Below are positions 4,385 through 13,454 of a DNA stretch of 64,000 bases, piece by piece (position 1 is the stretch's first letter; each line of letters starts with the position of its first letter). The DNA comes from Pediococcus acidilactici DSM 20284 (GTDB lineage Bacteria; Bacillota; Bacilli; Lactobacillales; Lactobacillaceae): NCBI RefSeq assembly GCF_000146325.1, contig NZ_GL397067.1, positions 65,747-129,746 on the forward strand, read 5' to 3'. A program made the position numbers and the translations under genes. The notes beneath the pieces were generated by a model. It saw nothing but the letters and a program-made list of their open reading frames with translations. It searched no databases and was not told the DNA's origin.

Positions 4385-4730
4385 GTCACCTAAATTGACG
4401 GATGCTGATCTAAAAGAATTAGTTTTTAAGAAGAATCCGCGGGTTAATTATAAAGTTGAAGGCGAACAAGTGACCATTATTCGTGCTCAAAACCATTGGA
4501 TTCAACAATTTTTACGAAAATTACATTTTAAAATTCCAGAGTTTACTTACCTAGATTTAGATGAATACGGCAGTTTTGTATTTCAACAAATTGATGGGCA
4601 ACGCAGCGCGTATGAGATTGGTCAGAATTTAGGCGAACGCTTCGAGGAAGCTAATGACTATTTGTATAGTCGATTATTATTGTATTTGAAGCAACTAGAG
4701 GTTAACGAACAGATTATCGAACGAGTTTAA
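4377..4730 (+). CDS. PqqD-like small protein in peptide-transport operon
   Basis: A 117-residue soluble protein. Its C-terminal half (IDGQRSAYEIGQNLGERF followed by a leucine-rich helical tail) follows the PqqD pattern, a winged-helix fold that in known systems binds a precursor peptide and hands it to a radical-SAM enzyme. No radical-SAM gene is visible in the window. The GTG start at 4377 overlaps the transporter stop by 8 bases and has GGGAAGG just upstream, so translation is probably coupled. The N-terminal 60 residues are basic and not recognised. A role in holding imported peptides or in assisting the transporter or dipeptidase is only a guess. Confidence 0.65.
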   Translation: MSKSPKLTDADLKELVFKKNPRVNYKVEGEQVTIIRAQNHWIQQFLRKLHFKIPEFTYLDLDEYGSFVFQQIDGQRSAYEIGQNLGERFEEANDYLYSRLLLYLKQLEVNEQIIERV

Positions 4731-4754
4731 AGAAATTTAAGAGGAGGATTTATC

Positions 4755-6182
4755 ATGACGGATAGAATTGAAATGTCAGCATGTACTTCAGTAATGGTTG
4801 GAAAGCAGGCTTCGCTTGATGGCGCAACCTACATTTCCAGAAACGAAGATCGTCTAGTGGCTATTCATCCAAAACGCTTCTTGGTTCAACCAGCCGTCTC
4901 CGGCCGACAAGAAATTTATAAATCACCATATAACGGATTAACTGTACCGTTGCCTGAAAGTGGCTATCGGTATACTTCAACACCTAACGCAGACGAAAGT
5001 GAAGGGCCTAATGAAGAAGACGGTTTTAACGAAAAAAACGTTGGTGAAAGCGCTACGGAAAGTGTTTACGCTAACAAACGAGTTTTAGCTTACGATCCCT
5101 TCGTCAAAAATGGGTTAGCAGAAGATTCCATGACTACGTTAGTACTTCCGTTTATTGATTCTGCTCGAGATGGAGTTCGTTATCTAGGCGAATTGGTGAA
5201 AAAATATGGTTCAGCAGAGGGTAACGGAGTTCAATTTAATGATGCTGACGAAGTGTGGTACATGGAAATTGTTACGGGTCATCAATGGGTTGCCGTTCGG
5301 ATTCCGGACGATTGCTATGCCGTGGCTGCTAACCAAATCGCGATTGAAGATATTGACTTTAATGATCCCGACAATTACATGTGGGCGGATGGCATTCAAG
5401 AATTTGTCGAAAAGCATGGTTTGAATCCTGACGAAGATCGCTGGAATTTCCGGCACATCTTTGGAACGGATACGGAAAAGGATCATCATTACAATACTCC
5501 TCGGGTTTGGTATGCTCAACGTTACTTAAACCCGGAGATTGAACAAGATCCTGAATCACCAGATCTACCGTTTATTCGGAAAGCTAGTCGAAAGATTTCG
5601 GTTGAAGATATTCAATATATTCTGAAGTCGCACTATAACGAAACTAAGTACGACCCATTAGGAAGTGGTAGCGAACACGATCGGAAGACGTACCGGGCAA
5701 TTTCCTTATCTCGAACAGCCAATTCACATATTTTGCAAATGCGGAATAGTCATGAAAATGAAGCGGCTGGAGTTCAGTGGATTGGCTTTGGCGTACCAAG
5801 TTTTTGCCCACACGTACCATTCTTTACCAACGCTAATGATACTGACGTTTCCTACCGGGAATTACCGGAAGAGATGTCATTAGATAGTGCATACTGGTTG
5901 TATGAAACTTTAGCAATGGTAGTGGAATCTCACTACGCTGAATTTATTCAGGACGATTTGGATTACCAAAAAGAGTTGTCACAATGGGCACGGACCAAGA
6001 TTGAAGAAGTTGACCAAGTGGCTAAGAAGATGTCGGGAAAAGAATTGACAAAATATCTTACTGAACAAAACCACCTTATTGCGCAACATTATAATAAAGA
6101 AACCAAGAAACTTTTAGCTAAGTTAACCAAGCAGGGTGCGGAATTATCGAAGCTAACCTTTAAGATGGATCCAAATTTGTGA
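4755..6182 (+). CDS. C69-family dipeptidase (PepD type)
   Basis: A 475-residue Ntn-type peptidase that cleaves dipeptides in the cytoplasm. Cys10 (MSACTSVMVG) matches the catalytic N-terminal cysteine exposed after propeptide removal in family C69, and the ISRNED block near residues 28-33 is the conserved second element. Length agrees with lactobacillar PepD enzymes. It has a GAGGAGG ribosome site (4741-4747) and follows the PqqD-like gene by 24 bases, completing a peptide import and hydrolysis operon that ends at the strong terminator at 6271. Confidence 0.88.
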   Translation: MTDRIEMSACTSVMVGKQASLDGATYISRNEDRLVAIHPKRFLVQPAVSGRQEIYKSPYNGLTVPLPESGYRYTSTPNADESEGPNEEDGFNEKNVGESATESVYANKRVLAYDPFVKNGLAEDSMTTLVLPFIDSARDGVRYLGELVKKYGSAEGNGVQFNDADEVWYMEIVTGHQWVAVRIPDDCYAVAANQIAIEDIDFNDPDNYMWADGIQEFVEKHGLNPDEDRWNFRHIFGTDTEKDHHYNTPRVWYAQRYLNPEIEQDPESPDLPFIRKASRKISVEDIQYILKSHYNETKYDPLGSGSEHDRKTYRAISLSRTANSHILQMRNSHENEAAGVQWIGFGVPSFCPHVPFFTNANDTDVSYRELPEEMSLDSAYWLYETLAMVVESHYAEFIQDDLDYQKELSQWARTKIEEVDQVAKKMSGKELTKYLTEQNHLIAQHYNKETKKLLAKLTKQGAELSKLTFKMDPNL

Positions 6183-6270
6183 TTCAAAAGATAGGCTTGG
6201 TGTTATGTAGTCGTCTAAAAGTGTTAAGGGGCGGTTGAATAAAACTTTCAACTAATTTTTCTTAATAATT

Positions 6271-6319: not shown

Positions 6320-7315
6320 TCAATATAAATCATCGCGATTCTTAATCAATTCATTTTTATAGTTAATGGGGGTAGTGTTTACATATTTTTTAAACAATCG
6401 GTTTAGGGAAGAAGGATTTTTATAACCAATTCGCAAGGAAATTTGGTCAAGCGATAGGTTAGTTTGAAATAAAAGTTCTTGGGCTGCATATAGACGGCGT
6501 TGTTCAATTAATTCTTTAAATGTTTGCCCAGTCGCTGCTTTGATCTTATTACTGAGATAATTCATGTTGTATCCAAAATGCTTACTTGTATATTGCAAAT
6601 TAGTGGTTGAATAATACTGTTCGATGTACTTTAAAATTGCCAATAATTCAGCATTATTGTCTGCCGCAAAATTTAGATGGTGATGGCTAACTAATGGTGG
6701 TAATTGCGTAATCAAGGTTGAAAAGAGCAATTTTAGCACTTGGTTATTATTTTTATGGGCGGATTCAAAGGCTACGAACAATAAGTCCATAATCAGACTA
6801 CGCGACAATGATTGTGCAGGTAAATCGAAAATCATGAAATTATGGTTGGTAGTTTTTAAGTTACAATTTTGCAGAAAGTCCGTTACAGCGTTGGATTGTC
6901 CAGAAAGTAAGTCCAATATTTTAGTGATAGTTAGAGAGTTTTTTAACAAAATGTTAATGATGACGTCATTTTCCCCAGTATAGCCAATTTTTTGAACAGT
7001 ATTCTTATCCATTAAAAGTAGTTGACCTTCTGTAAACTCAAATTGCTCGTTATTTAGCGATTGAATACAACTACCTGAATACATGTAGTTAAGTTCGATG
7101 AAATCATGAGTATGCGCGGGAACGTAAGAAAAACGATTTCCTTTAACAATGGTTAAATCGCCATGTTTAAAAAAATTGTATTTTGGCATTTTAGGGATGG
7201 GGCTTTCCTTAAAATTGAGCTTCATATAATTGTAATTAGCGTGATTTTTTCGCTGAGTGTTCTCTACATAATTTAGACTACGTATTTTTTTATCCAAGGT
7301 AATAAAATCCATCAT
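6320..7315 (-). CDS. AraC-family regulator with N-terminal cupin domain
   Basis: A 331-residue regulator. Residues about 50-140 form a cupin-like sugar-sensing barrel (PAHTHDFIELNYM), and about 230-325 hold the double helix-turn-helix of the AraC/XylS family. The ATG has AAGGAG six bases upstream. It diverges from the MFS/alpha-L-rhamnosidase operon and very probably controls it in response to a rhamnoside or rhamnose. It is clearly paralogous to the regulator at 14753-15760: both share the cupin motif PAH(T/S)H..(I/F)E(L/M)NYM. Confidence 0.85.
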   Translation of the reverse strand: MMDFITLDKKIRSLNYVENTQRKNHANYNYMKLNFKESPIPKMPKYNFFKHGDLTIVKGNRFSYVPAHTHDFIELNYMYSGSCIQSLNNEQFEFTEGQLLLMDKNTVQKIGYTGENDVIINILLKNSLTITKILDLLSGQSNAVTDFLQNCNLKTTNHNFMIFDLPAQSLSRSLIMDLLFVAFESAHKNNNQVLKLLFSTLITQLPPLVSHHHLNFAADNNAELLAILKYIEQYYSTTNLQYTSKHFGYNMNYLSNKIKAATGQTFKELIEQRRLYAAQELLFQTNLSLDQISLRIGYKNPSSLNRLFKKYVNTTPINYKNELIKNRDDLY

Positions 7316-11931: not shown

Positions 11932-11961
11932 TGCTTTTTTATGGTACACCCTAAAAGGTCA
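11932..11961 (+). repeat. Left recombinase-type dyad (30 bp, central dinucleotide AC)
   Basis: Two 14-bp arms flank AC at 11946-11947, and 10 of 14 arm positions are symmetric. The reverse complement of the dyad at 12683-12712 matches this site at 24 of 30 positions, including nine central bases GGTACACCC. It ends 20 bases before the recombinase start codon. The form, with arms around a 2-base centre, is that of a serine-recombinase crossover site; an operator is the alternative. Confidence 0.6.
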
Positions 11962-11981
11962 AAACATAAGGAGGAAGAAAA

Positions 11982-12578
11982 GTGAAATACGGGTATGCAA
12001 GAGTGAGCTCAAAAGATCAAAACCTTGCACGACAATTAGCTAGGTTAAAAGAAGTTGGGGTTAATCGAATATACAAAGAAAAGATTTCAGGAGCAATTAA
12101 TGAACGCCCCGAATTTGCTAAAGTTCTTGATGTTTTAAAACCTGGCGACGAGCTATATGTATTAGAGATGGAACGGCTAGGAAGAAATAATAAGTTTTTA
12201 ACTCATATTTTTATGGAAGTTTATTTACGGGAAGCTAAACTGATTATCCTTGATTTACCAACCTTTGACGACATTGATGATGAAAATATGCGAAACTTTC
12301 TACAAAACATTTTTATCGAGACCAAGAAGTTTCAAGCAGAATCAGAACGGCAACGAATTCGAAATCGTCAACGACAAGGAATTGAATTAGCAAAAAAACG
12401 CGGGGTATACAAAGGACGGCCCGTTTTATATGGCCCAGACGTTAAAAATCCTAACCGGCGTAAGATTTATTTTGATATTCGCGACGATCTAGCAGCAGGG
12501 AAAAGTATTATGGCAATTAAAAGAAAATTAGGAGTTAGTCGCACCCTAATTTATCGAATCAAATCCGAAATGTCATAA
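11982..12578 (+). CDS. Serine recombinase of the resolvase/invertase family
   Basis: A 198-residue small serine recombinase that cuts and rejoins DNA at paired dyad sites. The N-terminal YARVSSKDQN block carries the nucleophile (Ser9), MERLGRN holds the conserved arginine, a long helix follows near residues 105-135, and the C-terminal 40 residues form a Hin-like helix-turn-helix (GVSRTLIYRIK). Length and domain order are normal. The GTG start at 11982 has AGGAGG just upstream. The gene is flanked by inverted 30-bp dyads with matching central dinucleotides, so it may invert its own segment or bind there to control itself. Confidence 0.88.
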   Translation: MKYGYARVSSKDQNLARQLARLKEVGVNRIYKEKISGAINERPEFAKVLDVLKPGDELYVLEMERLGRNNKFLTHIFMEVYLREAKLIILDLPTFDDIDDENMRNFLQNIFIETKKFQAESERQRIRNRQRQGIELAKKRGVYKGRPVLYGPDVKNPNRRKIYFDIRDDLAAGKSIMAIKRKLGVSRTLIYRIKSEMS

Positions 12579-12612
12579 ACTAATCCCCGTCTAGGATTTA
12601 CTTTACGTAAGT

Positions 12613-12642
12613 AGTGGCATTTTGGTGTACAATAAATTGAAA
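12613..12642 (+). repeat. Degenerate third dyad-like site
   Basis: A GT centre at 12627-12628 with arms matching the 12683-12712 dyad at 18 of 28 positions. The two centres are 70 bases apart. It could be an accessory recombinase subsite; the match is weak. Confidence 0.3.
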
Positions 12643-12682
12643 AGTTGGTTACGAATTAATGATTATATACGTTAATAATTGT

Positions 12683-12712
12683 TGTCTTTTTTGGGTGTAC
12701 CCTAAAAAGACA
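12683..12712 (+). repeat. Right recombinase-type dyad (30 bp, central dinucleotide GT)
   Basis: The left arm TGTCTTTTTTGGGT and right arm ACCCTAAAAAGACA are mirror images at 13 of 14 positions around GT at 12697-12698. Read on the minus strand the centre is AC, the same as the left site, so the pair is in inverted orientation. It lies 45 bases before the next start codon. Confidence 0.7.
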
Positions 12713-12756: not shown

Positions 12757-13395
12757 ATGAGAATCCGTATCGATATCACTGGAAAACGTTTTGGAAAACT
12801 TGTAGCTCAGTATCCAGTTAGATCACCTAAGACTGGTAAATTGCAGTGGCATTGCCAGTGTGATTGTGGAAGGGTGACTAATGTTGATCTGCAACATTTA
12901 AAAACCGGCAATACCAAAAGCTGTGGGTATTGTACAAAAGTTCGCTACGATTTAACAGGAAAACGCTTTGGACGACTAGTGGTGACGGGACGGACCAACC
13001 GTAAAAGTACTTCAGGCAATTATTATTGGGCTTGTCAATGTGATTGTGGCCGAAAAGTGGATGCAGAAAGTTATTTGCTCCGCCATGGCAAGGTTAGGAG
13101 TTGCGGATGCTTACGAAAGGAGAAATCCGCCGAACGTTTAAAAAATAACCGAAAGATATCTGCTCAAATGGGAGCTAAGGACGCTTTTCGGGATCCAAAT
13201 GGCAATCCAATTCAATCGGTAATTGCTAGTTCACGTAATCAATCAGGAGTGGTAGGGGTTTCCTTTAACTCTTCTGGGAACAAGTGGATTGCCCGCATGA
13301 TGGTCAATGGTAAAATGGTTTTAAACGAGTCTTACGATGAATTCAATGATGCTGTGGCGGCACGGCGAAAAGCTGAATTGAAATATTTAAAGTGA
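12757..13395 (+). CDS. Protein with two cysteine-rich zinc-ribbon repeats and a C-terminal AP2-like domain
   Basis: A 212-residue protein of unknown function. Two tandem repeats (about residues 5-59 and 65-118) each begin TGKRFG(K/R)LV and carry CQCDCG, then a second Cys pair (Cys33/35/37 with 56/59; Cys93/95/97 with 116/118), consistent with zinc binding. Residues about 163-210 resemble the AP2 DNA-binding domain found in phage and HNH homing proteins (GVSF..SGNKWIARMMVNGK). No HNH nuclease motif is seen. The sequence suggests a DNA-binding protein of mobile origin, paired here with the recombinase. A GGGGGAGG ribosome site precedes the ATG. Confidence 0.65.
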   Translation: MRIRIDITGKRFGKLVAQYPVRSPKTGKLQWHCQCDCGRVTNVDLQHLKTGNTKSCGYCTKVRYDLTGKRFGRLVVTGRTNRKSTSGNYYWACQCDCGRKVDAESYLLRHGKVRSCGCLRKEKSAERLKNNRKISAQMGAKDAFRDPNGNPIQSVIASSRNQSGVVGVSFNSSGNKWIARMMVNGKMVLNESYDEFNDAVAARRKAELKYLK

Positions 13396-13417: not shown

Positions 13418-13454
13418 AAAAGGAGTTTTCAGCCTAAAACTGAGAACTCCTTTT
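13418..13454 (+). terminator. Bidirectional intrinsic terminator
   Basis: A 15-bp stem (13418-13432 with 13440-13454, one G-T pair) flanked by A and T runs lies between convergent genes, so it can act on both strands. Confidence 0.9.

Follow-up and report, generated by a model that had tools for sequence, protein, structure and literature searches.

A probable inversion switch run by a Sin-like serine recombinase in Pediococcus acidilactici and related lactic acid bacteria

Do two short dyads on either side of a serine recombinase gene serve as crossover sites of a DNA segment that inverts, or do they have another role? We addressed this question for a locus of Pediococcus acidilactici DSM 20284 that lies in a 64,000-nucleotide stretch of contig NZ_GL397067.1 (the window, whose numbering is used for all coordinates without a prefix). 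On the basis of its sequence and of comparison with relatives, we consider it highly probable that region 11932-12712 is an invertible segment with its own recombinase, which a Sin-like enzyme would operate as an inversion switch. The locus contains the following features:

11932-11961: dyad 1, crossover-site-like, TGCTTTTTTATGGTACACCCTAAAAGGTCA, on the 5′ side of the recombinase gene, centre AC at 11946-11947
11982-12578, + strand: gene of a small, Sin-like serine recombinase, 198 aa, GTG start, Pfam Resolvase 1.1e-27
12596-12681, + strand: stretch between recombinase stop and dyad 2, aligns with genome G001 at a score of 62 that 0 of 500 shuffles reach
12683-12712: dyad 2, crossover-site-like, TGTCTTTTTTGGGTGTACCCTAAAAAGACA, on the 3′ side of the recombinase gene, centre GT at 12697-12698
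12757-13395, + strand: zinc-ribbon/AP2-type gene, 212 aa, PHROG 374 (HNH endonuclease family) 5.9e-43
13418-13454, + strand: terminator-like hairpin 3′ of the AP2-type gene, one of 2 such sites in the region against 1.4 expected from shuffles

Among solved structures, the recombinase is best matched by Sin/Tn552 bin3 (2r0q, 4.2e-40, residues 3-196), with two DNA-invertase chains far behind at 1.1e-13 and 3.2e-13. Its match contains no stop in the window genome (G000) or in G001, G009 and G010, the G010 copy ending at the contig end. An intact small serine recombinase gene adjoins both crossover-like sites, which is the arrangement of a serine-recombinase inversion switch. The product of the zinc-ribbon/AP2-type gene scores 0.06 against Pfam AP2, below the cut-off; we presume this gene, with its start in the fixed flank, to be the target of the switch.

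Paired inverted dyads around the recombinase gene

Rechecking the sequence confirmed the dyads at 11932-11961 and 12683-12712 and reproduced the counts of the original prediction, 24 of 30 matching positions in inverted alignment and 22 of 30 in direct alignment. The nine identical central bases that it had described for the inverted alignment are GGTACACCC, with centres AC and GT. One correction concerns its 14-base arms, which pair at 13 of 14 positions in dyad 2 and at only 10 of 14 in dyad 1. Read outward from the centre, dyad 1 consists of an outer half ACCATAAAAAAG and an inner half ACCCTAAAAGGT, and it is conserved around recombinase orthologs. Serine recombinases cut with a 2-base stagger, so that sites with AC and GT centres can be joined in inverted alignment only.

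The paired inverted dyads are beyond chance. In the flanks of the window recombinase, an inverted score of at least 24 was reached in 0 of 100 shuffles and one of at least 22 in 2 of 100. With ungapped scoring (+1/−2), the inverted match reached 16 against a shuffle maximum of 12 (n = 100), the best direct match being 9; the best inverted 30-mer between both flanks, in a slightly shifted frame, matched at 25 positions and the best direct one at 22. The 20-base motif TTTTAGGGTNNACCCTAAAA occurs with up to 2 mismatches at four places genome-wide, the two window dyads and two dyads of a second locus described below, and its reversed control at no place in the whole genome under the same limit.

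We searched 301 genomes of the family and found a recombinase match at E≤1e-48 in 30 of them, at 37 places. The pair test comprised 30 loci, 29 of them testable, with significance set at p≤0.01 against 100 shuffles each; L005, with only 2 bases past the recombinase, was untestable, and L140 ends 201 bases past it. Significant inverted pairs bracket the recombinase in 10 of the 29 testable close orthologs. Nine of these pairs are of the GGTACACC/GGTGTACC core type, one site in G009 being two bases longer, and that of L159, the tenth, differs in sequence. A tree built from 44 recombinases places nine inverted-pair loci out of the ten in one clade with support 99/99; the 12 rows of this clade comprise these nine, two loci cut by contig ends and L016, which lacks a pair. 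Each of the nine complete pairs around a recombinase has AC at the 5′ side of the recombinase and GT at the 3′ side (ACAC at the 5′ side in G009), as required by flipping, which leaves the centres unchanged.

Beyond the close orthologs the pair is rare: a wider, mostly remote set with 78 testable loci yielded 2 (L013 and L015, which are members of the clade anyway), a second wider set 1 of 52 (the IMG/VR contig L183, same type) and a viral-contig set 1 of 51 (L303, unrelated sequence), after 2, 2 and 29 loci, respectively, had been left out because a contig end was too near or there was no match. The pair therefore marks one clade and not small serine recombinases generally. Further viral-contig scans returned the L183 contig again (as L317) together with remote relatives, and the other Pediococcus recombinases have an inverted pair in 0 of 7 cases. 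Two of the seven listed places outside the 30-locus test were seen otherwise: G157:C50 (L016) has no inverted pair, and G009:C4 (L012) gave, in the wider search, an inverted match of other sequence with a score of 14 that is not significant against shuffles. L154 has a direct match of 15, above its own inverted-shuffle maximum of 12. A search run without shuffle control also gave weak inverted pairs that differ in sequence; L039 had the best, with a score of 17, which is not significant in the shuffle-controlled search, whose span is narrower. At the DNA level, no copies of the module were found in plasmid records, the matches being confined to short stretches of the recombinase in three Enterococcus records.

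The surroundings of further relatives vary. Sister-group recombinases without significant pairs (L169, L172, L173 and L174) have neighbours that we take to be WxL-type surface proteins. In the P. vaccinostercus genome G157, an AP2-type gene with a single upstream dyad TTTTAGGGTACGCCCTAAAA lies beside a surface-protein-like gene, with no recombinase among the ORFs (L178:3710-4403). AP2-type genes also adjoin 44%-identical recombinases in L115 (G008) and L116 (G005), where an in-frame TGA lies inside the matched stretch. In G130, an AP2-type gene is divergent from a recombinase bracketed by an inverted pair, and an ORF that looks transposase-like by eye lies between them (L162:3825-4310 and 4523-5845).

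Opposite orientations among relatives

Comparison of relatives for the reversed gene order, which the original prediction had named as a check, revealed it in Pediococcus, in genus g20 and in L183/P. vaccinostercus. Opposite orientations in three lineages, in two of which comparison of homologous flanks locates the breakpoint in the site, favour its proposal that the sites support inversion.

In Pediococcus, recombinase and AP2-type gene point the same way in G000 and G001, which have one common orientation, and are divergent in G009 (P. pentosaceus) and G010. The module of recombinase and AP2-type gene does not occupy the same chromosomal position in G000/G001 as in G009/G010, so that the AP2-type gene is the sole fixed reference for this flip. 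For the divergent pair, far sites were compared in G009, whose far site has the outer half TAAAAAAGCA in common with the window site; G010 was judged from gene order. The AP2-side site of G009 (L117:7112-7145) has a 4-base centre, ACAC, instead of 2 bases, and the G009 copy may therefore be locked.

The recombinase is present in 5 of 15 g20 genomes and in 1 of 8 g33 genomes. The segment in g20 is flanked on one side by the gene of a giant surface protein and on the other by a different gene. The surface protein of G223 has a KxYKxGKxW signal (3e-11) and a Muc_B2 match (1.3e-11, both Pfam), and ORFs at that place in G145, G122 and G238 have an N-terminus like that of the G223 adhesin. The recombinase 5′ end faces the adhesin in these four genomes. 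The fifth, G207, has the opposite orientation with half-sites exchanged at the core: its 5′ inner half adjoins the outer half (ACCCTAAAAA[GA]TTATGC) found at the 3′ border in the other four genomes. This flipped junction is found on two contigs that are 85% alike and have the same end sequence, and the adhesin-side junction falls outside the assembly.

Two further features were seen in g20. The second switch copy of G207 (L177:9751-10567) has a broken recombinase frame. A hairpin-like inverted repeat, possibly a terminator or attenuator, lies between the 5′ site and the recombinase start, close to the latter (L163, L164, L165, L166, L167 and L177); one example is GGACTGAGG...CTCAGTCC, followed by a T run in L177.

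The recombinase of the IMG/VR contig L183 is 97% identical to that of Paucilactobacillus vaccinostercus L015. Between the two, the segment aligns in the same sense at 92% identity (L183 2951-3818) and the near flank in the opposite sense at 84.6% (L183 2788-2979 to L015 4993-4787), with no overlap between the two alignments except in the site. The opposite sense was also found for two stretches of the far flank and for one on the adhesin side. In L183 the adhesin lies past the 3′ end of the recombinase; in L015 it is divergent from the 5′ end, the two adhesins being distant homologs (32% over 172 aa). The segment has a surface protein of the KxYKxGKxW type as its neighbour in the g20 and the L015/L183 lineages, according to a Pfam scan of two loci. 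The L183 sites match slightly better in direct (24) than in inverted alignment (23), and their centres AC and GT match only when inverted, so that inversion there is dictated by the centre only. From site to adhesin start, L015 and L183 have about 130-155 bases of fixed flank, which leaves room for a fixed promoter.

Proposed mechanism and a second dyad pair in the same genome

In the mechanism that we propose, the Sin-like recombinase would bind both dyads, and recombination between them would flip the roughly 750 bases between the centres, the recombinase gene included. The AP2-type gene has its ribosome-binding site about 30 bases and its start about 45 bases past dyad 2, outside the segment; a separate promoter would hardly fit in between, which argues for transcription from inside the segment, which would come either from recombinase read-through or from an outward promoter before dyad 2. 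The window orientation, with the recombinase pointing toward the AP2-type gene, would be the ON state, and the P. pentosaceus orientation, with the recombinase pointing away, the OFF state. We infer catalysis by the window recombinase, switching within a strain, the ON/OFF effect and the action in trans discussed below from these arrangements.

For an outward promoter, the conserved block past the recombinase stop contains TACAAT at 12628-12633, a possible −10 element toward the AP2-type gene. Judged from sequence, the TACAAT block is a candidate outward promoter element in Pediococcus; the best-scoring promoter pair of the stretch in G000 is TTGAAA-18-GATTAT and not the TACAAT block (p 0.485), and in the same stretch of G001 the best outward promoter has p 0.07. 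Of the 9 loci scored past the recombinase stop, all 9 have a better top promoter score in the outward than in the inward direction, and in none does the outward promoter reach significance against shuffles (p 0.07 to 0.485). In all 4 complete g20 loci, which are close relatives, TTGTAC-17-TATATT lies 134-138 bases from the core (p 0.10-0.24 singly), and G207 also has it, ahead of the contig end. A consensus promoter scan of the window region returned 5 promoters against 5.3 expected.

A second dyad pair of the same genome has these coordinates:

C1:42508-42527 and C1:42734-42753 (within C1:42502-42760; L093:6500-6760): second dyad pair, left of the window, 35 kb away

It forms a perfect 26-base inverted repeat, 206 bases apart, with the motif of the window dyads and centres AA and TT. 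No recombinase lies between its dyads, and a paralogous AP2 gene follows directly, whose 153-aa product is 49% identical over 148 aa to the window AP2-type protein. In G001, about 1.56 kb including the second dyad pair and the AP2 gene are replaced by 134 bases. The first dyad of this locus (dyad A) was also picked up as a terminator-like hairpin, on each strand, and the consensus promoter scan of the locus found no promoter against 5.1 expected. Shared sequence between the inside of the second locus and the 3′ part of the first was considered and rejected, since it amounts to only 12 bases (p 0.36). Nearby, an exact 15-base inverted repeat TGGTTTAATTACCTA occurs at L093:6297-6311 and 6677-6691, with one arm inside the second segment and the other outside, and the stretch before the locus (L093 ~6012-6248) belongs in part to a dispersed repeat that has 20 more matches in G001.

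The second segment is probably flipped in trans by the window recombinase. Its AA/TT centre matches itself when inverted but not AC/GT, which would keep the two loci from joining; because the centres differ, each locus could flip without recombining with the other. Extending this, we suggest, with slightly more doubt than conviction, that one Sin-like former resolvase runs two switches in one Pediococcus genome, that the centre dinucleotides act as addresses blocking cross-recombination, and that members of the site family have come to switch giant mucin-binding-type adhesins in other Lactobacillaceae.

Alternative explanations and relation to known systems

The original prediction regarded operators as the main alternative: recombinase or AP2 protein would repress itself and the next gene at the dyads without cutting. 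The position of dyad 1 directly before the recombinase start would fit this, as would several relatives with a lone upstream dyad and no downstream partner (e.g. GGGTATACCC in L010, L011, L017, L018 and L055). Operators alone, however, do not explain the flips, as they predict neither a second inverted dyad with a matching centre nor flipped segments with breakpoints in the sites, and we regard a purely regulatory role as improbable. An operator role of dyad 1 next to its role in inversion is compatible with all of this, and the dyad beside the recombinase start may have both. The flips could also be old one-off rearrangements that left the segment a fixed relic in the window strain, an explanation that has its mechanism in common with the inversion switch and overlaps with it. 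G000 and G001 have the same orientation, the window sites agree at 24 of 30 positions with 10 of 14 pairs in the arms of dyad 1, and the AP2-side site of G009 carries a 2-base insertion, all of which a relic would account for; against it stand the recombinase match without internal stop in G000, G001, G009 and G010 (G010 cut by the contig end), the identical nine-base core and the perfect 26-base repeat of the second locus in the same genome, and on balance we think a relic unlikely.

If the module were a mobile element ending at the dyads, orientation differences would stem from independent insertions, and a chromosomal position of the module that differs between G000/G001 and G009/G010 would be expected. 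This is very hard to reconcile with the homologous flanks in g20 and in P. vaccinostercus/L183, between which only the segment is reversed, and with the Pediococcus AP2 gene, which lies outside the dyads but travels with the module. The least probable explanation, a plasmid or transposon resolvase resolution system left in the chromosome, draws on Sin as the nearest solved relative and on at least 5000 plasmid records with homologs of <60% identity, but such a system needs direct repeats, whereas the window centres match only when inverted, and the half-site scan of 4 loci gave no convincing accessory subsites. The inversion switch run by the Sin-like recombinase is thus the reading we retain.

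Small serine recombinases of the Hin/Gin type operate the flagellar phase switch of Salmonella and the tail fibre switches of Mu and P1, acting on short dyad sites with a 2-base centre, with the recombinase encoded within or next to the segment and with a Fis-bound enhancer. The window locus likewise has a small serine recombinase and inversion sites; it differs in that its recombinase is nearest to Sin (4.2e-40) and its neighbours, in lactic acid bacteria, are surface proteins or AP2-type genes. Sin itself, which like beta recombinase belongs to the resolvases of Gram-positive plasmids, acts with accessory subsites, and the window recombinase resembles Sin over its whole length. Going by the title of a 1998 study by Canosa, beta recombinase reportedly inverts DNA between inversely oriented six sites. 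Unlike Sin systems, the window locus has one dyad per end, in inverted orientation, and the direct-repeat arrangement by which a Sin-type resolvase system deletes DNA is absent from the window sites. Sin-type accessory subsites were sought by a 200-base half-site scan of 4 loci, none convincing being found; the single extra match, in L015, compares with about 0.4-1.2 expected per region by chance.

Invertons, invertible promoters upstream of genes in gut bacteria, were reportedly described by Jiang in 2019, to judge from the title, and the present locus may resemble them in having a putative invertible promoter ahead of a gene. Two papers cite that work (PMC8987985, PMC9244547), and the former describes Hin/Gin-type inversion by a small serine recombinase as switching expression (PMC8987985). 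In L. plantarum, a study of msa-marR describes an invertible promoter region before an adhesin gene, with both orientations in cultures, and raises RecT as a possible recombinase (PMC8493755). This system occurs in the bacterial family of Pediococcus and lies beside an adhesin gene, as the segments of g20 and L015/L183 do, but its repeat, CTTTAGCATGCTTTTGTAAAAAATCGTGC, is unlike the window sites, and a link with the Lactiplantibacillus plantarum msa promoter inversion was rejected on that ground. Within 12 kb of the msa region of G258, we found no GGGTNNACCC site and, by eye, no resolvase-like ORF among those listed. A description of the present switch was not found in the open-licence literature, among the matches listed: the mechanism class, a serine-recombinase inversion switch, is known, and the enzyme subfamily, the site family, the neighbours and the two-locus arrangement were not found described there within the same scope.

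If the proposed switch operates as we suggest, several lactic acid bacteria would have in common a switch that is complete in itself and lies next to giant adhesins or AP2-type genes. A resolvase-type, Sin-like enzyme would then act as an invertase with one short dyad per end, and how such enzymes choose inversion over deletion would become testable in bacteria that are harmless. A genome with both centre types would then offer a natural case of orthogonal recombination sites.
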